From the NCBI GenBank assembly GCA_002878375.1, contig NIRF01000010.1, forward strand, positions 1-64,000: a stretch of 64,000 nt of DNA, written 5' to 3'. Position numbers and translations under genes: made by a program. Below the pieces are notes generated by a model. That model ran no database searches and had not been told where the DNA came from. It saw nothing but the letters and a program-made list of their open reading frames with translations. The stretch is from Dictyoglomus sp. NZ13-RE01. GTDB taxonomy: Bacteria > Dictyoglomota > Dictyoglomia > Dictyoglomales > Dictyoglomaceae. This document shows positions 54,480 to 62,792 of this stretch, piece by piece. Every line of letters starts with the position of its first letter. Position 1 is the stretch's first letter.

Positions 54480-56204
54480 ATGAGTGAAAGAATTTACATT
54501 GTTCCTGAGCCAAAAAGGATGAGTTTTTCTGGAAGATGGTTTCCCTTTGATGGCTTTGAAAATTTACCAGATTTTATCTCAAGGGAGTTTAATATTCCAA
54601 AAGGAAGCTGGAGAATTGAAAAGATTGATAGAGAAGGGATAGGAGTAGAAATAAAGGAAAAAATTGTGAATATATGGGGAAACGAACATATTTGCTATGC
54701 TACTCTCATTCAAATCCTAATGCAAAAAAAGAATATAATGCCTGAGGTAGAGATTGAGGAGGAATTTTCATTCTCCTTTAGAGGATACCACTTGGATATT
54801 GCAAGAGGAGGAGTACCAAAGGTAGAAACCCTAAAGAACTTACTAAAATGGCTCTTTTTATTAAAATATAACTATTTTGCGATATACTTTGAAGATCTTT
54901 TCCCATGGAGAAAATATCCACAAATTGGAAGATTAAGAGGAAGAATGACGGAAGAAGAGCTAAAAGAGGTCATATATTTTGGGAAAAATCTTGGGATAGA
55001 GGTTTTTCCATCCTTGGAGCTTTGTGGACATATGGAGCATATCTTATCTCTTCCCGACTTTAGGACCTTTAGTGAGTGGCATAGACCCCAAGAGGGATGT
55101 CTAAACGTTTCCAATGAATCAGCAAGATCCTTTGCCTATGACCTATTGAAAGAAGTTTTAGATTTCTTCCCATCAAAGTACATATTAATAGGGGGAGATG
55201 AAACCTGGGCTTTGGGAAGAGGAAGGAGCCTGGATAAAAAAGGTATTTTTGAGGGACCATCCCTTTATGAGATGCATCATAGAAACATGGTAAATATTGT
55301 GAAGGAGAAAAATAAGGAGCCCATCCTATGGGGAGATATGCTTACAGGTATGTATCTCACAGAAGAGGAGAGAGAAAGATGGAAGGTGGCTTTAGAGAGC
55401 GAAATATGGGATGAGGTGATAATCGCCAATTGGGACTATAGTGCTAACTCCATAGAGCATTTTAGAAATAAGATAAATCTATTTGGGAAAAGAAAGGCAA
55501 AGGAGCTTGCATGTCCAGGGCTTGCCAACTGGAATAGGTATTATCCAAACTTTGATATGGCACTAACAAACTTGAAAAACTTCTTGCTCCCTGCAAAGGA
55601 GGAAAAACTGCCAGGTTTTCTGGTTACTGCCTGGGGAGATGATGGGGAGGAGTGTTTATTCTCCTTCTTAGACCCTCTAATTCTTGCCAGCATGGAAATA
55701 GCGGAAGGGGATGGAAACTGGGAGGATAAATGGGTTGCCCTTACAGGTGAAGAGAAAGAAGTTTTAGATTTAAGAAAGGATTTTGGAAATACTATAATCT
55801 CAGAAACTTTAAAGCATGTTCTCTTTAAGGATTTTACCTATAGGTATTACACAGAAATAGTGGCAAGTAAAGCATCTGAGAGGAAGAAAACAGGGGACTT
55901 TTGGATGGACTATTACATGAGCTTACTTGATAACTTAGCTAATAAGGAAAAATTAATAGAAATTTATGAAAAGGTGTATGAAAAGGCAAACAAACCCAAT
56001 CTTCCTGAGGATCTATCCTTAATAAGGGATCTAATTGGGATAGGTATTAATAGATTAAAGAATAAAAATAATTCAGCGGAGTTTATTGCAGTCTCCTATA
56101 AGTATAAAAAGCTATGGCTTTCTGAAAGGAAAGAAGAGGGCTTAGAAAATATTATTACAAGGTTTTGGGGCTCTGCAGGAAGGGCGGACTTAGAGATCAT
56201 CTAA
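54480..56204 (+). CDS. Glycoside hydrolase family 20 beta-hexosaminidase-like protein
   Basis: A 574-residue intracellular GH20-type protein. A short N-terminal GH20b-like domain ends near residue 95. The TIM barrel begins SFRGYHLDIARGGVPKVETLKNLLKWL, and YILIGGDETWALGRG holds the catalytic pair Asp240-Glu241. LGIEVFPSLELCGHMEHIL is also characteristic. It has no signal peptide and carries an extra alpha-helical C-terminus of about 140 residues. It would remove terminal N-acetylhexosamine; murQ 4 kb away suggests use of amino sugars. Its last 15 bases overlap the convergent metallophosphoesterase gene. Confidence 0.82.
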   Translation: MSERIYIVPEPKRMSFSGRWFPFDGFENLPDFISREFNIPKGSWRIEKIDREGIGVEIKEKIVNIWGNEHICYATLIQILMQKKNIMPEVEIEEEFSFSFRGYHLDIARGGVPKVETLKNLLKWLFLLKYNYFAIYFEDLFPWRKYPQIGRLRGRMTEEELKEVIYFGKNLGIEVFPSLELCGHMEHILSLPDFRTFSEWHRPQEGCLNVSNESARSFAYDLLKEVLDFFPSKYILIGGDETWALGRGRSLDKKGIFEGPSLYEMHHRNMVNIVKEKNKEPILWGDMLTGMYLTEEERERWKVALESEIWDEVIIANWDYSANSIEHFRNKINLFGKRKAKELACPGLANWNRYYPNFDMALTNLKNFLLPAKEEKLPGFLVTAWGDDGEECLFSFLDPLILASMEIAEGDGNWEDKWVALTGEEKEVLDLRKDFGNTIISETLKHVLFKDFTYRYYTEIVASKASERKKTGDFWMDYYMSLLDNLANKEKLIEIYEKVYEKANKPNLPEDLSLIRDLIGIGINRLKNKNNSAEFIAVSYKYKKLWLSERKEEGLENIITRFWGSAGRADLEII

Positions 56205-56954
56205 AGTAATCTTCTTATCAATTATTTTATCGTTAACCTCTATAAGGATAAAGTGAGGATTTCCAGCCTCATAAATGGAGGTGTGGGGGATACTTCCCCC
56301 ACTCCCCGATATTATGTATGTTACATTTCCAACCCTTTTCCTAAAATATAGATGAATATGTCCTGAGAATACATATTTTACTTTCTCTCTCTCAAAAAGA
56401 TCCATGAGAATTTTTGTCTCTTTTAAATCGTGTCCTAAATAGGGATAAAATCTTCTGAAAAACTCCAATATAGGTGGAAGGACAAGTGGTCTATGCATAA
56501 AAACAAACTTAACTTTATCCCCCGAAGAACTTAAAACCTCCTTTAGCCAATTTATCTGCTCCTCTCCCAATCTTCCCAAAGCATTATTAAGGATGATGAA
56601 TCTTGCATTCTCAAAGTCAAAATAATAATATAAAGGTCTTCCTGTAAAATCCTTGAAATTTTTACCACCATCCTTTGATATATCATTATTCCCAGGCACA
56701 AAATATATAGGGATTGGAGAAGAGGAGAATTGTTTCTTAACTAATTCAAGTTCATTTCCTTCCCAGCTATTTATAAAATCTCCTAAGTGAATTATAAAAT
56801 TAGCGGATGTGCTATATATTTTATTTAGAAGAAGAGCTGTTATGCTTGGTATTCCATCATAACCCTCACTATCCCCTATAACCGCAAACTCAAAGGCATA
56901 GGAGTAGGAAGTAAAAATCAAGCAAAATATAAAGATAATTAGAATAAATTTCAT
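56190..56954 (-). CDS. Exported metallophosphoesterase with altered GNHD motif
   Basis: A 254-residue exported protein (signal peptide residues 1-20), paralogous to the gene at 45369-46121. Motifs are FAVIGDSE, IIHLGDF, FVPGNNDI, FMHRPL and FSGHIHLY. The third motif reads GNND, with Asn90 replacing the invariant His that acts in catalysis; the paralogue keeps GNHD. It may therefore have reduced or altered activity. Its start overlaps the stop of the GH130 gene by 4 bases, so the two are coupled. Confidence 0.88.
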   Translation of the reverse strand: MKFILIIFIFCLIFTSYSYAFEFAVIGDSEGYDGIPSITALLLNKIYSTSANFIIHLGDFINSWEGNELELVKKQFSSSPIPIYFVPGNNDISKDGGKNFKDFTGRPLYYYFDFENARFIILNNALGRLGEEQINWLKEVLSSSGDKVKFVFMHRPLVLPPILEFFRRFYPYLGHDLKETKILMDLFEREKVKYVFSGHIHLYFRKRVGNVTYIISGSGGSIPHTSIYEAGNPHFILIEVNDKIIDKKITLDDL

Positions 56955-58966
56955 AGCTCCTTAGGAACTAAATCTCCAATCCTTCCTTCTGCAAGAGCCA
57001 TTACCTCATCCGCTCCACCGTAATAAACAAGGATCTCATCATTCTCATCCAATATTTCTGTAGAGTCTTTGTACTTTGGTACAACCCCACAGGTAAAGAC
57101 TACTTCAGGCACCCATCCCTCTACCTCATAATATTCCTCAGGCTCTAAGATGGGATATGGAGAGCGATATATTACCTTTTCTGGATTTTCCAAAGAGGTA
57201 ATCACTATACCTAAGGCATATGCCTTTTTCCCTTTCCATCTTCCTACCCCATGATAGATATGTAGCCATCCAAACTTAGTCTTTAGAGGGGGTGCTCCTG
57301 CCCCTATTTTCTCGCTATCCCAGTAGTTTGGACGTGGCATTAAAAAGGTTCTTCCCACAGTTGCTCCTTTATATGGGATCTCGTGGGTAAATAAGATCTG
57401 CATATCAGGAGGAATCCTATGGATCAAAGCTACCTTCTGATGGTATAGTTCTGGGAAAAGATTTATAAAGTTTCCTTTATACTCCTTCTCTCCCAATTTT
57501 ATATCATCTTTTCTCTCCTCAACGGGGAATAATACTGCATCCTTATCATCAAGCCCCTTAAAAATAGGACCATTTCTCTCCCAAACCCTTTTCCACTCCT
57601 CATAGGATTTGAATTCCTTTACACCCCTTAAAAAGTCATCTATATGGATCTTTGTTAGAGAAAGCTGAATTAAATCTCCATAGGATGTATAAGTCATATA
57701 TAGATAGTTGTTTATTAGGTAGATTCTTGGGTCCTCTGTTCCTCCAAGCTCCCTTAACATGCCTAAGTGCTTCAACTGCCAATCCTTTCTTTTCTGCAAT
57801 CTCTTAGGAGACTCATACTCTTCTTCTGGTCCAAAAATTGGGAAAGGAAGTCTTCCATCCTCCTTGTATCCATCTCTACTCCACCAAAGCCCAATTCTTG
57901 AGAAACCGTCCTCTCCCAATGCCCTGTAAAAAATATAGGTAACTCCGTTTAATCTAATGGCTCCTGCATTGTAAACTAATCTCTCCCAATGAATCTTTTC
58001 TCCCTTTACATCAATGGTCAAGTCGTATCTCGCCTTAAACAAGGGATTACCAGTAAAGCGCTTTAATTTTCCTCCTCGAGGATAACTCTTTGGATTTAGA
58101 ATCTCATCAAAGATGTATAAAAACTGACTTCCTACCCTCTCTGGTGAATGTCCATAGGCAATACCTTGATAATACTTTAATATATCCTCTCTTTCTTCCC
58201 CATTTCTCAATAACTCTTTGACCTTATCTACTATGTTATCCTCATTATATCTTAGACTTTCAAGATACTCATATTTTAACCTGCCTACATCTCTTACAAG
58301 AACTACCGCTCCTCCTGTAATTACCTGATAAAAAAGTACAGGATATTCCTCCTCCTTCTGATACAAAATTACCAGTTTTGCAGATTGAGTATACTTAACA
58401 ATATCCTTCCAAGAGTTAACAACCCTAAAATCTATTTCAATATCCTTAAATTCCTCTCTTAACTTATTCTCCTCCTCCAAAGAAAAGCAAATCCCCAATA
58501 AATATATGGATGGGTCCTCCTTCAAGATCTTTATTTTACCTTTTAACGGAGAATAATCACCTAAAAGAATAATAATATTTTTATCCTGGGGAAGATTAAG
58601 CTCCCTTACTATCTCCTCCTTAGAATACTCTTCTACACTATAATAGGGAATTTCTACTTTATAAGTTCTTTTATCCTCCGATGGAACAAAGGATATTATG
58701 GCGGACCAAATAGATGAATAAAGGGCACTATACTCTTCTCCCCAAGGATTTAGGAGAATCTTTTTTGAACTAAATTTTTCTAATTCTTTTAGAATATTAT
58801 CCCAATCTAAATCTTTCTTCCCCAAAACCAAAAAAATACTGTATCCTTCTTCCCCCTTATAATCGAAAGAGACCTTAACTTTATACCCCTCTTTTTCCCA
58901 CCAATCTAATATAGGTACCAGGTAATCTTCCTTACCTAAGACTAAAATTCCGCTCCCCTTCTCCAT
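56951..58966 (-). CDS. GH130 mannoside phosphorylase/hydrolase with N-terminal glycosyltransferase-like domain
   Basis: A 671-residue protein; ATG 58966 is preferred over GTG 58972 because GGAGGA is correctly spaced from it. The C-terminal 370 residues are a GH130 five-bladed propeller: LVYNAGAIRLNGVTYIFYRA, GGTEDPRIYL with the catalytic Asp, KDAVLFP, IGAGAPPL, YHGVGRWKG and VVFTCGVV followed by YYGGAD. GH130 enzymes phosphorolyse beta-mannosides. The first 290 residues look like the C-terminal half of a GT-B glycosyltransferase (NIIILLGDYSPLKGKIKIL, VITGGAVVLVRDVG). No signal peptide. Confidence 0.8.
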   Translation of the reverse strand: MEKGSGILVLGKEDYLVPILDWWEKEGYKVKVSFDYKGEEGYSIFLVLGKKDLDWDNILKELEKFSSKKILLNPWGEEYSALYSSIWSAIISFVPSEDKRTYKVEIPYYSVEEYSKEEIVRELNLPQDKNIIILLGDYSPLKGKIKILKEDPSIYLLGICFSLEEENKLREEFKDIEIDFRVVNSWKDIVKYTQSAKLVILYQKEEEYPVLFYQVITGGAVVLVRDVGRLKYEYLESLRYNEDNIVDKVKELLRNGEEREDILKYYQGIAYGHSPERVGSQFLYIFDEILNPKSYPRGGKLKRFTGNPLFKARYDLTIDVKGEKIHWERLVYNAGAIRLNGVTYIFYRALGEDGFSRIGLWWSRDGYKEDGRLPFPIFGPEEEYESPKRLQKRKDWQLKHLGMLRELGGTEDPRIYLINNYLYMTYTSYGDLIQLSLTKIHIDDFLRGVKEFKSYEEWKRVWERNGPIFKGLDDKDAVLFPVEERKDDIKLGEKEYKGNFINLFPELYHQKVALIHRIPPDMQILFTHEIPYKGATVGRTFLMPRPNYWDSEKIGAGAPPLKTKFGWLHIYHGVGRWKGKKAYALGIVITSLENPEKVIYRSPYPILEPEEYYEVEGWVPEVVFTCGVVPKYKDSTEILDENDEILVYYGGADEVMALAEGRIGDLVPKEL

Positions 58967-59006
58967 AAACACTCCTCCAAAATTACATTTTTTACTAACC
59001 CACTAA

Positions 59007-59045: not shown

Positions 59046-59753
59046 ATGTCTTTTTATTGTCTACAATTCTTAAATGAAATAGAATATAGATCTATGAAGG
59101 GTGCATTGGATTTTGACTATGTTATTCCAAAAATTGAAGAAGAGGTATCCAAATTTACTGATCCTGTAATTACAAGGGTAAGAAAAAAGGATAAGGATCC
59201 TTTTAAGATCCTTATTGGAACCATCTTAAGCTTAAGAACAAAGGACAAAACTACCGAGGAGGCAGTTGAAAGACTTTTTAATGTAGTAAAAGGACCTGAG
59301 GATCTTCTGAATCTACCCACAGATGTTATTGAAAAACTCATATATCCTGTAGGTTTTTATAAAAGGAAGGCAATTTTAATTAAGGAGATTGCAAAAACAA
59401 TAATAGAAAATTATGGAGGGATGGTACCGAGAAGCATTGATGAGCTTATTAAGATAAAAGGGGTAGGGAGAAAAACTGCAAACTTGGTAATCACAGAAGC
59501 CTTTGATGATTATGGAATATGTGTGGACACCCATGTGCATAGGATTTCAAATAGAATTGGCTGGGTTAGGACAAAAACTCCTGAAAAAACAGAGCTGGAG
59601 CTAAGAAAGGTCCTTCCCAAAAAATATTGGAAAAAGATTAATCCAATTCTTGTTTCTTTTGGGCAAAATATATGCAAGCCTATAAGTCCCCTTTGCTCCT
59701 CATGCCCCATTAACGACATATGTCCTAAAATTGGCGTAAAAAATCATAGGTAA
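59046..59753 (+). CDS. nth: Endonuclease III family DNA glycosylase/lyase
   Basis: A 235-residue base-excision repair enzyme acting on oxidised pyrimidines. Its helix-hairpin-helix is [12 protein letters not shown] with the catalytic Lys nearby, and the catalytic Asp is in [16 protein letters not shown]. The C-terminal [17 protein letters not shown] carries four Cys for a [4Fe-4S] cluster with the usual 6-2-5 spacing. AAGGGG before ATG 59046 supports the start. The N-terminus is about 20 residues longer than in E. coli Nth; an inner ATG at 59097 is possible. Confidence 0.93.
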
Positions 59754-59758
59754 AAAAC

Positions 59759-59787
59759 TTTTCTTTATAAATAAGATTTTGTATAAT
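59759..59787 (+). promoter_or_regulatory. Promoter of the dehydratase-like operon, predicted leaderless
   Basis: TATAAT at 59782-59787 ends 7 bases (TTTTGCT) before ATG 59795, with another ATG at 59798. The -35 is weak (TTTTCT, 59759-59764, 17-base spacer). There is no ribosome binding site before either ATG. Confidence 0.65.
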
Positions 59788-59794
59788 TTTTGCT

Positions 59795-60790
59795 ATGATG
59801 GGGGAAATAAAAGAGCTTTATAATGAAAGTAAAATAGAAAATATAAATTCAAGCTCATCAGTCTTTTATTTTTGTGCCTATGTGCCCCAGGAGCTTATCC
59901 ATTCTGCAGGATACAATCCTTTCCGTTTTATACCAACTCCCACATACTTTGAAAGGACCGATGAGTACCTACCAAAATATCTATGCCCATACCTCAGAGC
60001 TACAACCGAAGAAATATTAAGAAGAGAGATAAAAATTCCAAGAGCAATATTTACCGATGCCTGTGACTCCTCTAAGAGGATATATGAGGTATGGAAATTC
60101 CTAAATATGGCGGAAGAGATCTTTTTCCTTCAAGTGCCCTTTGGAGAAGAAGAGGAAGACATTTTATATTTCTCAGAACAACTGAAAAGACTATTTTTTA
60201 GCCTTAATGAGAATGGAAAGATCGAGGATATAGAAAGATCAATAGACCTTTATAATTTAGGGAGGAAGAAAGCCCAAAATATGCCCTTTTCCCACATATT
60301 ATTTCACTCCATGAATATCAATGATTTTTTAAATATATCTTGGGAATGGAAAGAAAATAAGCCTAAGTTTTATCTTTACTCCACCATGTATCCCTTAGAG
60401 CTTATTGAATATATTCATGATATGGATATAAACATAGTTTTTGACGATTCATGCTTTGGAATTAGAACATTGGAAGAGATTAAGCCAGTATCTAAAGATC
60501 CCTTCTATAATCTTGCCTATTATTACATGAAAAGAGAAGGATGCGTAAGAAGGAGAAATCTAAAGGATAAGGTCTCTCAGATTAAGGAGAGAATATTAAA
60601 AGAAAAAGTTAAAGGCGTTATATTTTACTCATTAAAATTCTGTGATCCCATCCTTTTCTATATACCTCTATTAGTGAGAGAACTAAAAAAAGAAGGAATT
60701 CCTACCCTTTTATTGGAGGATGACTATACCTTAGGGATAAAAGAGCAGATTAGAACGAGATTAGAAGCTTTTCTGGAGATGGTATTATGA
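59795..60790 (+). CDS. 2-hydroxyacyl-CoA dehydratase family protein (HgdB/BcrC type), smaller subunit
   Basis: A 331-residue iron-sulfur protein of the 2-hydroxyacyl-CoA dehydratase/benzoyl-CoA reductase family. Three conserved Cys for a [4Fe-4S] cluster are visible in LCPYLRATTEE, FTDACDSS and LKFCDPILFY. The C-terminus LLVRELKKEGIPTLLLEDDY and EQIRTRLEAFLEM is the family hallmark. It overlaps the second subunit gene by 4 bases (ATGA). No CoA-transferase or amino-acid gene is adjacent, so an acyl-CoA substrate is not implied by context. Translation seems to start at the very 5' end of the mRNA. Confidence 0.85.
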   Translation: MMGEIKELYNESKIENINSSSSVFYFCAYVPQELIHSAGYNPFRFIPTPTYFERTDEYLPKYLCPYLRATTEEILRREIKIPRAIFTDACDSSKRIYEVWKFLNMAEEIFFLQVPFGEEEEDILYFSEQLKRLFFSLNENGKIEDIERSIDLYNLGRKKAQNMPFSHILFHSMNINDFLNISWEWKENKPKFYLYSTMYPLELIEYIHDMDINIVFDDSCFGIRTLEEIKPVSKDPFYNLAYYYMKREGCVRRRNLKDKVSQIKERILKEKVKGVIFYSLKFCDPILFYIPLLVRELKKEGIPTLLLEDDYTLGIKEQIRTRLEAFLEMVL

Positions 60791-62019
60791 ATATAGAAGT
60801 CTTAGACCATGTGAATACTATTAGAAAGGCACTAAAAATCCCTATAGTTTATCCTATTGCCAGTCTTGTATTGAAGACAAAATATAGAAAGGATAAAGTA
60901 ACAAGAATATCCTATGAGTATGCCTTAGACCTGGTTAGGCACAACTACCAGGGAAGAAAAAAGGTTGTCATGACAAATATACTAATGCCTTCTGAAATCC
61001 TTTTTGCATTAGACCTTTTTCCAGTCTTTCCTGAGGTTGCATCAGGATTTACATCCGCCTTAGGGTGGGCAGAAAAAACCCTTTTTGATAGCGAAGAGAT
61101 CCTTTATTCAAAGGACCTTTGTAGCGTACATAGAAATATTATAGGGCTAATAAAGGACAATATACTTCCCATTCCAGATTACATGGTTACCACTTCTCAT
61201 CCTTGCCATTCCGCTCTCCACTCCTTCTTTATTGTCTCTCAAATCTTTGGAAGCGAATATTTTCCCATAGATTTACCTCTAAAGGATAACAATTTTCTCC
61301 AATATACTGCCAAAAAGCTCGAAAATCTATTCTTCAATCTATCTAAAAAGCTTGCCATTAAAGATCCATTAAAGGGACTTAAAAAAGCAGTAAGATACTC
61401 TAACATTGCAAGAGATTATCTGATAGAGATAAATGAGCTGAGAAAGGAATATGTTGTTATAGATGGAAAGAATTTTTTAGATTATGCTGGAATGATCTTT
61501 TCAACCTTTGGATCCCTTTGGGGGGTTAGATTTTTTAAGGCATTAAGGGACGAAATATTAGATAGAATCAAGAAGAAGAAATTCTTAGATTGTAAGATAA
61601 GGGTTTATTGGCTCCATTTAGGACCATATTTTAAAACGGACTTTTTTGATTTTTTGAATAAAAAATCTTGTTGTATTGTTTTTGAAGAGAGCAGTAATGT
61701 TTATTGGGAAAAGTTAGATGAGGATGAGCCCTTTATATCCCTTGCAAAGAAGATCATTAATGCAAGAATATTTTCAGATGTGGAAGATAGGTTCAAGCTG
61801 GCATTGGAAGGAGTAAGAAATTACAAGGCGGATGGTGTAATAATCTTTAATCATTGGGGATGCAGGCAAGGCTCAGGCAACTCCTATATCTTGAGAAAAA
61901 AACTTATAGAAAATGGCATTCCAGCATTAGTTATTGATGGAGATCTAATAGATCCTACTAATTTTCCTGTTGAGCAGGCAAAAACAAGATTAGAAGCCTT
62001 TTTGGAGGTGCTATCATGA
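60787..62019 (+). CDS. 2-hydroxyacyl-CoA dehydratase family protein, larger subunit
   Basis: A 410-residue partner of the preceding subunit. ILMPSEILFALDLFPVFPEVASGF is the family N-terminal block, and candidate cluster Cys are in SKDLCSVHR, TSHPCHSAL and NHWGCRQGSG. It ends with IPALVIDGDLIDP and EQAKTRLEAFLEVL, as in HgdB-type proteins. The length is close to double-cubane-cluster proteins, which work with one activase, but here two different subunits are present. It overlaps the activase gene by 4 bases. Confidence 0.83.
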   Translation: MNIEVLDHVNTIRKALKIPIVYPIASLVLKTKYRKDKVTRISYEYALDLVRHNYQGRKKVVMTNILMPSEILFALDLFPVFPEVASGFTSALGWAEKTLFDSEEILYSKDLCSVHRNIIGLIKDNILPIPDYMVTTSHPCHSALHSFFIVSQIFGSEYFPIDLPLKDNNFLQYTAKKLENLFFNLSKKLAIKDPLKGLKKAVRYSNIARDYLIEINELRKEYVVIDGKNFLDYAGMIFSTFGSLWGVRFFKALRDEILDRIKKKKFLDCKIRVYWLHLGPYFKTDFFDFLNKKSCCIVFEESSNVYWEKLDEDEPFISLAKKIINARIFSDVEDRFKLALEGVRNYKADGVIIFNHWGCRQGSGNSYILRKKLIENGIPALVIDGDLIDPTNFPVEQAKTRLEAFLEVLS

Positions 62020-62792
62020 GCTACTACTTAGGTGTAGATATAGGTTCTGTTACTACAAAGGTTGTTTTAATATCCGATAAGAGAGAAATCAAGGGGTATA
62101 GGATTGGAAAAACAGGGATTGATGGGAATAAGAGTGCCAAAGACCTAATAATGGAGCTATTAAAAGATTTAAATATAGAGCTTGGTGATGTTAAAAAGAT
62201 ATCTGCTACAGGTTATGGAAGGGTAAGGGTTGACTTTACAGACTTCACAAAAACAGAGATCTCCTGCCATGCAAAGGGGGTAAACTTTCTTTTCCCATCC
62301 GCAAGAACCATAATTGATATTGGTGGACAGGATAGTAAAGCAATAAAGGTGGGGAAAAATGGAGCAGTATTAGATTTTGTTATGAATGATAAGTGTGCTG
62401 CAGGTACCGGAAGATTTTTGGAGGTAATGGCAAAGGTTTTGGAAGAAGATTTAGAAAATTTTGGTAGAATTCATATGCAAGAAAAGGAAGTCATTGAAAT
62501 TACAAATATATGTACTGTTTTCGCAGAATCGGAAATAATAACCCTTTTATCCCAAGGTAAAAATAAAAATAGTATAATAAAGGGATTAAACTATTCTATT
62601 GCAAAGAGGGCGGTCTCCTTAGTAAAGAGGATAGGAGCAGAAAAAGACGTGGTTATGACAGGAGGAGTAGCCAAAAATCAAGGAGTTAAAATGGCTATAG
62701 AGGACCTATTGGGATTTAATATTCTTCTTCCTGAGGATCCACAAATTATGGGAGCATTAGGAGCAAGCATTTTTGCTTTGGAAGGAGCTTAA
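62016..62792 (+). CDS. Acyl-CoA dehydratase activase (HgdC/BcrAD/BadFG type ATPase)
   Basis: A 258-residue ASKHA-fold ATPase that injects a low-potential electron into a dehydratase or reductase partner. Motifs are YLGVDIGSVTTKVVLI, SATGYGRVRV, IIDIGGQDSKAIKV, and the two Cys that bridge the dimer cluster, in NDKCAAGTGRFLEVMA and NICTVFAESE. TGGVAKNQGV follows. The length and motif order match HgdC. Coupled to both subunits by overlapping start and stop codons, so the three probably form one enzyme system. Confidence 0.92.
   Translation: MSYYLGVDIGSVTTKVVLISDKREIKGYRIGKTGIDGNKSAKDLIMELLKDLNIELGDVKKISATGYGRVRVDFTDFTKTEISCHAKGVNFLFPSARTIIDIGGQDSKAIKVGKNGAVLDFVMNDKCAAGTGRFLEVMAKVLEEDLENFGRIHMQEKEVIEITNICTVFAESEIITLLSQGKNKNSIIKGLNYSIAKRAVSLVKRIGAEKDVVMTGGVAKNQGVKMAIEDLLGFNILLPEDPQIMGALGASIFALEGA

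Follow-up and report, generated by a model that had tools for sequence, protein, structure and literature searches.

The main finding of this work is a three-gene cassette of Dictyoglomus sp. NZ13-RE01, a thermophilic sugar fermenter, that, judged from its sequence, would encode an ATP-driven, multi-electron, low-potential reductase system consisting of an alpha-beta iron-sulfur enzyme and its ATP-driven electron donor, a reading to which we give a probability of roughly 0.55. The cassette lies in the window, that is, the whole stretch of 64,000 nucleotides analysed here (contig NIRF01000010.1, positions 1 to 64,000 of the forward strand), and has the following features:

59782–59787, + strand: TATAAT −10 element, 7 nt before the beta start codon
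59795–60790, + strand: beta subunit (P0001, 331 aa), HGD-D match, predicted holder of a double-cubane [8Fe-9S] cluster
60787–60790, + strand: ATGA overlap of the beta stop and the alpha start, read from the sequence
60787–62019, + strand: alpha subunit (P0002, 410 aa), HGD-D match, predicted holder of a catalytic [4Fe-4S]-OH2 cluster
62016–62019, + strand: ATGA overlap of the alpha stop and the activase start, read from the sequence
62016–62792, + strand: ATP-dependent activase, or archerase (P0003, 258 aa), matching TIGR00241 and PF01869

The three genes encode a system of HGD-D subunits plus archerase belonging to the superfamily of benzoyl-CoA reductases (BCR), 2-hydroxyacyl-CoA dehydratases (HAD) and double-cubane cluster proteins (DCCP). 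Both iron-sulfur subunits exceed the Pfam HGD-D cut-off of 28.4 bits (177.7 for P0001 and 201.3 for P0002), and the activase exceeds those of Pfam BcrAD_BadFG (PF01869; 200.8 bits against 31.5) and of the NCBIfam activase domain model TIGR00241 (268 against 125); no NCBIfam equivalog cut-off is reached by any of the three. These scores and the two ATGA junctions bear out the initial annotation, which had described two different iron-sulfur subunits and an activase joined by 4-base overlaps. Apart from alpha and beta, the genome holding the window (G000) has no HGD-D genes, and the cassette activase is the only one of six PF01869 hits in that genome with a KCAAG cysteine motif. It aligns over its full length with the HAD activators 4EHT, its closest match, and 1HUX, and with MbdQ, its second best; its motifs DKCAAGTG (C127) and NICTVF (C166) match those of all three, and its cysteines and nucleotide motifs agree with those of the solved activators. 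Among the Dictyoglomaceae relatives (G001–G006), the order beta-alpha-activase is identical in all four with a complete locus (G001–G004), and the partial loci of G005 and G006 are consistent with it. AlphaFold2 models of alpha (pLDDT 89.9) and beta (pLDDT 90.5), in which metal clusters are not visible, retrieved at E < 0.001 no folds other than those of dehydratases, benzoyl-CoA reductases and DCCP, the closest fold to alpha being HadB (3O3M, TM 0.82) and the best match of beta by E-value being DCCP.

The evidence that carries the reductase reading is the predicted set of cluster ligands. Beta holds exactly six cysteines (C27, C64, C90, C220, C250 and C283), which align one-to-one with the double-cubane [8Fe-9S] ligands C36, C73, C100, C263, C293 and C327 listed for BzdN (PMC11971306), and all six are present in every complete Dictyoglomaceae beta. 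The same positions are all cysteine in DCCP, in four of six cases in HadC, where those of C27 and C220 are lost, and in three of six in MbdN. Of the HAD-like relatives, those with an aligned beta retain cysteine at three or four of the six positions, with the exception of L072, whose aligned frame keeps none, and relatives with a WGC-type alpha retain all six, except for an Atribacterota-like core without C220. In alpha, C112, C140 and C359 align with the catalytic-cluster ligands C95, C128 and C380 of BzdO, and Glu70 aligns with a glutamate conserved in HadB, MbdO and DCCP, the aligned BzdO segment having stopped short of its Glu65. At the position of the catalytic His131 of BzdO (Cys+3 of the second alpha ligand) alpha has Ala143, and HadB likewise has alanine there (PMC11971306). 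The signature of the alpha clade is CSxHR (CSVHR in P0002, with a near-constant His115) together with WGC[RK]Q (WGCRQ in P0002); that His115 serves as the proton donor of alpha is a guess.

Previous studies give these ligand sets a functional meaning. In HAD, one electron is recycled over many turnovers (PMC8473912, PMC11574389), and the cluster of its beta subunit has been described as a double-cubane remnant (PMC11971306). Each turnover of BzdNO requires two electrons, and at least two were proposed to accumulate on its [8Fe-9S] cluster (PMC11971306). Because the beta subunit of the cassette keeps six ligands under long divergence and alpha keeps the open-site pattern, the pair is best read as a net reductase. 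The initial annotation had already proposed an uncharacterised low-potential reductase; we favour this more strongly than it did, since a six-ligand beta occurs in two known reductases, BzdNO and DCCP, and is missing from the known dehydratase HadBC, while catalysis, clusters and any substrate stay hypothetical. In the proposed mechanism, reduced ferredoxin would load the [4Fe-4S] cluster of the homodimeric activase, and ATP hydrolysis would bend the activase and push an electron into beta. Two or more electrons would be stored on the double-cubane [8Fe-9S] cluster of beta, held by the six cysteines, and would then move on to the [4Fe-4S]-OH2 cluster that three cysteines hold in alpha, where, with Glu70 and perhaps His115, electrons and hydrogen would be delivered to a bound substrate. 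The outcome would be net reduction and not redox-neutral dehydration. What we infer here are the clusters, the route of the electrons, the reaction direction and the part played by His115, whereas the genes present, their homology, the conservation of the cysteines, the position in the trees and the lack of four CoA-pathway families are observed.

Several observations weigh against such a reductase. The ligand assignment comes from alignments at about 20–25% identity, and the C220 equivalent is lost in the Atribacterota-like sister group. The cysteine count is not a strict criterion for telling a reductase from a dehydratase, as MbdNO achieves net reduction with three of the six positions. In addition, an AMP ligase and/or a Ysc84/SYLF gene lies upstream in most Atribacterota-like loci, and an enoyl-CoA hydratase (L069) and a 4HBT thioesterase (L064) adjoin the pair elsewhere; since AMP ligase, enoyl-CoA hydratase or thioesterase genes stand beside some relatives with the same type of alpha, a CoA ester may be the substrate of those relatives.

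The initial annotation had named acyl-CoA pathway genes elsewhere in the genome as a finding that would speak against it, and these were sought family by family, in four families only. AMP-binding ligases, class I and class III CoA-transferases and acyl-CoA dehydrogenases were all absent from the window genome and from four relatives (G001–G004), a search that did not extend to ADP-forming ligases or enoyl-CoA hydratases. In the 14 control genomes, the AMP-binding ligase scored in 12, the class I CoA-transferase in six, the class III CoA-transferase in five and the acyl-CoA dehydrogenase in nine. The absence of the four families removes the usual catabolic supply and use of 2-hydroxyacyl-, enoyl- or benzoyl-CoA. 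Amino-acid or aromatic CoA-ester catabolism is an unlikely source of the substrate in this organism, where another CoA thioester may still serve. As a positive control, the HAD-like locus L077 lies among genes for an AMP ligase, an enoyl-CoA hydratase and a 3-hydroxyacyl-CoA dehydrogenase, which indicates that the neighbourhood method detects CoA pathways where they are present. The most useful new fact of this work is, in our view, that genomes devoid of the tested acyl-CoA partner families carry the full predicted pattern of six plus three ligands.

The main split of the alpha, beta and joined trees separates the window pair from HadBC, MbdNO and BzdNO. The reference side of the joined tree, which also takes in the HAD-like relatives, has a support of 100/99, and on the other side the window pair groups first with Atribacterota-like genomes (100/99) and next with a further group of that phylum (92/97); the Thermotogota-like fused group falls somewhere on the same side as the window pair. 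Forcing the Dictyoglomaceae rows onto the reference side changed the log-likelihood by −37 units (approximately unbiased (AU) test, p-AU 0.008), in trees with long branches, few characterised references and DCCP entered as both halves of the concatenation, and for a grouping chosen after the tree had been inspected. A tight placement inside a characterised acyl-CoA dehydratase clade, the other finding that would have told against the initial annotation, was accordingly not recovered: the window pair is placed by these trees outside all characterised enzymes included in them. Close homologues of alpha were found in 27 of 103 genomes of the G198 phylum and in 26 of 50 of the G147 phylum, for which we infer the labels Thermotogota and Atribacterota, respectively. 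This orphan cassette is not an isolated oddity, as relatives occur in at least two other phylum-level groups. A Dictyoglomaceae profile recovered two close loci from genome contigs and nothing from viral contigs, and a search of plasmids with alpha gave remote homologues only.

A single protein of about 560–630 aa (HGD-D followed by BcrAD_BadFG) combines beta and activase in the examined loci of the G198 phylum and also in G052 and G201. In the copies checked, it has both activase cysteines, and this fusion supports the view that the three genes of the window act as one machine. The fusion gene directly follows alpha in the Thermotogota-like loci L061 (6341–8032), L066, L067, L068 and L138–L147. 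A Sua5/TsaC (threonylcarbamoyl-AMP synthase) gene overlaps its 3' end by a few bases in L068, L143, L146 and L147, which belong to one family; among the genes for the tRNA modification threonylcarbamoyladenosine (t6A), TsaC/Sua5 is near the cassette in these four loci of one lineage and TsaD near L065 only.

Of the other enzymes to which the cassette could be likened, a HAD would have its activase inject a single electron; a ketyl radical would then eliminate water from a 2-hydroxyacyl-CoA, and the electron would be recycled over many turnovers. The alpha-beta-activase layout is the same, HadB is the closest fold to alpha as 4EHT is the closest match of the activase, and a C-terminal DGD motif is common to the cassette and HadB. 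A dehydratase is nevertheless unlikely, given the full set of double-cubane cysteines in beta against four of six in HadC, NCBIfam scores of 40 for HadB (cut-off 750) and 94 for HadC (cut-off 700), the rejection of the tree joining the window to the HAD/BCR side (AU p 0.008) and a genome lacking class I and III CoA-transferases, AMP ligase and acyl-CoA dehydrogenase. The ligand sets, six as in BzdN plus three as in BzdO, would also suit a class I benzoyl-CoA reductase acting on benzoyl-CoA or another aryl-CoA. This we consider highly improbable, as alpha has Ala143 in place of the catalytic His131 of BzdO, one activase is found where two types are expected, the NCBIfam scores are 52, 23, 59 and 63 against cut-offs of 421–487, and an AMP-type aryl-CoA ligase is absent from the genome. 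DCCP reduces acetylene, hydrazine and azide (PMC11971306), and a similar small-molecule enzyme, serving detoxification or a nitrogenase-like reduction of small compounds with triple or double bonds, would agree with the best fold match of beta, with the six cysteines that the two have in common and with substrate-pathway genes being found neither nearby nor among the families tested. In the DCCP homodimer, however, both subunits carry a double cubane, whereas the alpha of the cassette does not show that pattern and is predicted to hold an open-site cluster; the NCBIfam double_cubane model (NF040772), which has a cut-off of 350, gives scores of 111 and 56, and the physiological role of DCCP itself is unknown, so we give such an enzyme a low probability.

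It is also conceivable that the cassette reduces a lipid in the manner of PlsA and Ger, turning a phospholipid ester into a vinyl or alkyl ether by reduction of its carbonyl. Such ester-to-ether chemistry requires a multi-electron net reduction, and no fused PlsA/Ger was found in the window genome, where the longest other PF01869 frame has 518 aa, which makes the cassette the only archerase system seen there. The Ysc84/SYLF genes lying with an AMP ligase upstream of the Atribacterota-like loci, which we take to be of a lipid-binding family, point the same way. There is precedent in the superfamily, since PlsA and Ger turn glycerol esters into ethers (PMC12838417, PMC13274423, PMC11150832), as expression of T. 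maritima Ger in E. coli demonstrated for the latter (PMC11150832, PMC13274423). On the other hand, the Pfam domain DUF2229, a hallmark of PlsA/Ger, is not found in P0001 or P0002 (a PlsA-like control scored 198.6 bits), and similarity to a plasmid-borne PlsA-like protein is marginal with single-sequence templates. Membership in PlsA/Ger, assessed against that protein and against a split DUF2229 cassette, was rejected, the similarity being remote only. Lipid-type neighbours were not seen at the Dictyoglomaceae or Thermotogota-like loci, and branched tetraethers were not detected in cultured D. thermophilum and D. turgidum, in a study that does not report on mono-ethers (PMC3705189). On balance, we consider a lipid ester reductase quite improbable. 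Split DUF2229 systems, L163 (4998–8215, on a Monoglobus plasmid) and L137 (14023–15501), resemble the cassette in gene sizes and order (about 330 aa, 408 aa and an activase in L163) while belonging to a different domain family, and are possibly a split relative of PlsA/Ger.

Translation of the cassette probably begins on a leaderless mRNA, as the initial annotation had put forward. A TATAAT element stands 7–9 nt ahead of the beta start in all six Dictyoglomaceae genomes (7 nt in G000, G001 and G002, 8 in G003 and G005 and 9 in G004), although the sequence between and around these elements has diverged and the start codon is GTG in one of the six. No Shine-Dalgarno sequence was seen within the short gap between the element and the start. 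The usual spacing from a −10 element to the 5' end of the transcript is about 7 nt, and the 5' end of the beta mRNA is therefore predicted at the start codon or within about 2 bases of it. A scan for the full sigma-70 consensus called no complete promoter here, a good −35 element being absent.

The genes on either side are those that the initial annotation had named:

59046–59753: endonuclease III-like gene (Nth; PF00730), upstream of the cassette
from 62806: NAD synthetase gene (NadE), downstream of the cassette

Neither is retained beside the cassette in the relatives, even within the genus, and a functional link of the cassette with NadE or endonuclease III was rejected for this reason. When the Nth/NadE pair was sought in the relatives as a cassette-free site, the best Nth matches were only 39–42% identical and NadE did not adjoin them. 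The flanking genes, as named by eye from their sequences, are nucleotidyltransferase-like and NUDIX-like in G001 and G002, and sugar-kinase-like and LacI-like in G003 and G004. DNA glycosylases of three kinds adjoin the cassette in separate lineages: Nth in the window, a methyladenine glycosylase in L060 (10053–10589) and L062 (8617–9255) and an HhH-GPD protein in L065 (9252–9884). A link to base-excision DNA glycosylases did not recur in 20 further loci checked and is probably due to chance. Further upstream in the window (54480–58972) are three genes that fit a glycan-degrading fermenter: one is GH20-like, one encodes a metallophosphoesterase and the product of another has a GH130 domain at its C-terminal end.

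More tentatively, and rather doubtfully on present sequence comparisons, the cassette may represent a distinct class of archerase in Dictyoglomota, Thermotogota and Atribacterota, one with a double-cubane store and an open [4Fe-4S] site performing a net reduction unrelated to acyl-CoA catabolism. If so, it would embody a nitrogenase-like logic, ATP-gated and multi-electron, without nitrogenase ancestry. In any case, a small thermophile heterodimer with the same predicted ligand set is at hand in genomes without the four CoA families, and their absence means that the cassette allows the function of the clusters to be studied apart from CoA-ester catabolism. Structural work could use the Thermotogota-like fusions of beta and activase, in which donor and acceptor form a fixed one-to-one complex, and what a single ligand contributes could be gauged by comparison with the naturally five-cysteine betas of the Atribacterota-like group. 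In these betas (L058, L059 and L128–L134), five of the six positions are kept and C220 is replaced by E, Y, I, M, T, R or L.

Among the known systems closest to the cassette, PlsA and Ger belong to the same superfamily, have activase domains and illustrate that substrates other than CoA esters are possible, but their architecture is PF01869 plus DUF2229 with weak HGD-D similarity, and DUF2229 is missing from the cassette proteins. The 3-methylbenzoyl-CoA reductase MbdONPQ (PDB 9G87, 9GAI) resembles it in the alpha-beta fold and in activase homology, and differs by its two activase subunits and by the three double-cubane cysteines of MbdN. DCCP and its reductase DCCP-R (PDB 6ENO, 7YYL) have the six ligands of the cassette beta and a single ATP-driven reductase, yet one type of subunit forms the homodimer and carries a double cubane in each copy, in contrast to the two subunits of the cassette and its open-site alpha. 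With HadBC, the (R)-2-hydroxyisocaproyl-CoA dehydratase, and its activator (PDB 3O3M, 4EHT), the cassette shares the folds of alpha and beta, a single activase of homodimer type, the catalytic glutamate and the three-cysteine site; HadC, however, retains only a [4Fe-5S] remnant, and HadB has RSCKL and CAYAR motifs where alpha has WGCRQ and CSVHR. BzdNO (PDB 8S02; PMC11971306) has two activase subunits where the cassette has one activase gene, uses His131 where alpha has Ala143 and the clade motifs with His115 and WGC[RK]Q, and shows about 18–20% identity in fold searches; no aryl-CoA pathway was found for the cassette genome. It is nonetheless like the cassette in being a heterodimer activated by ATP, with six ligands in the small subunit and three ligands for a catalytic [4Fe-4S] cluster in the other.

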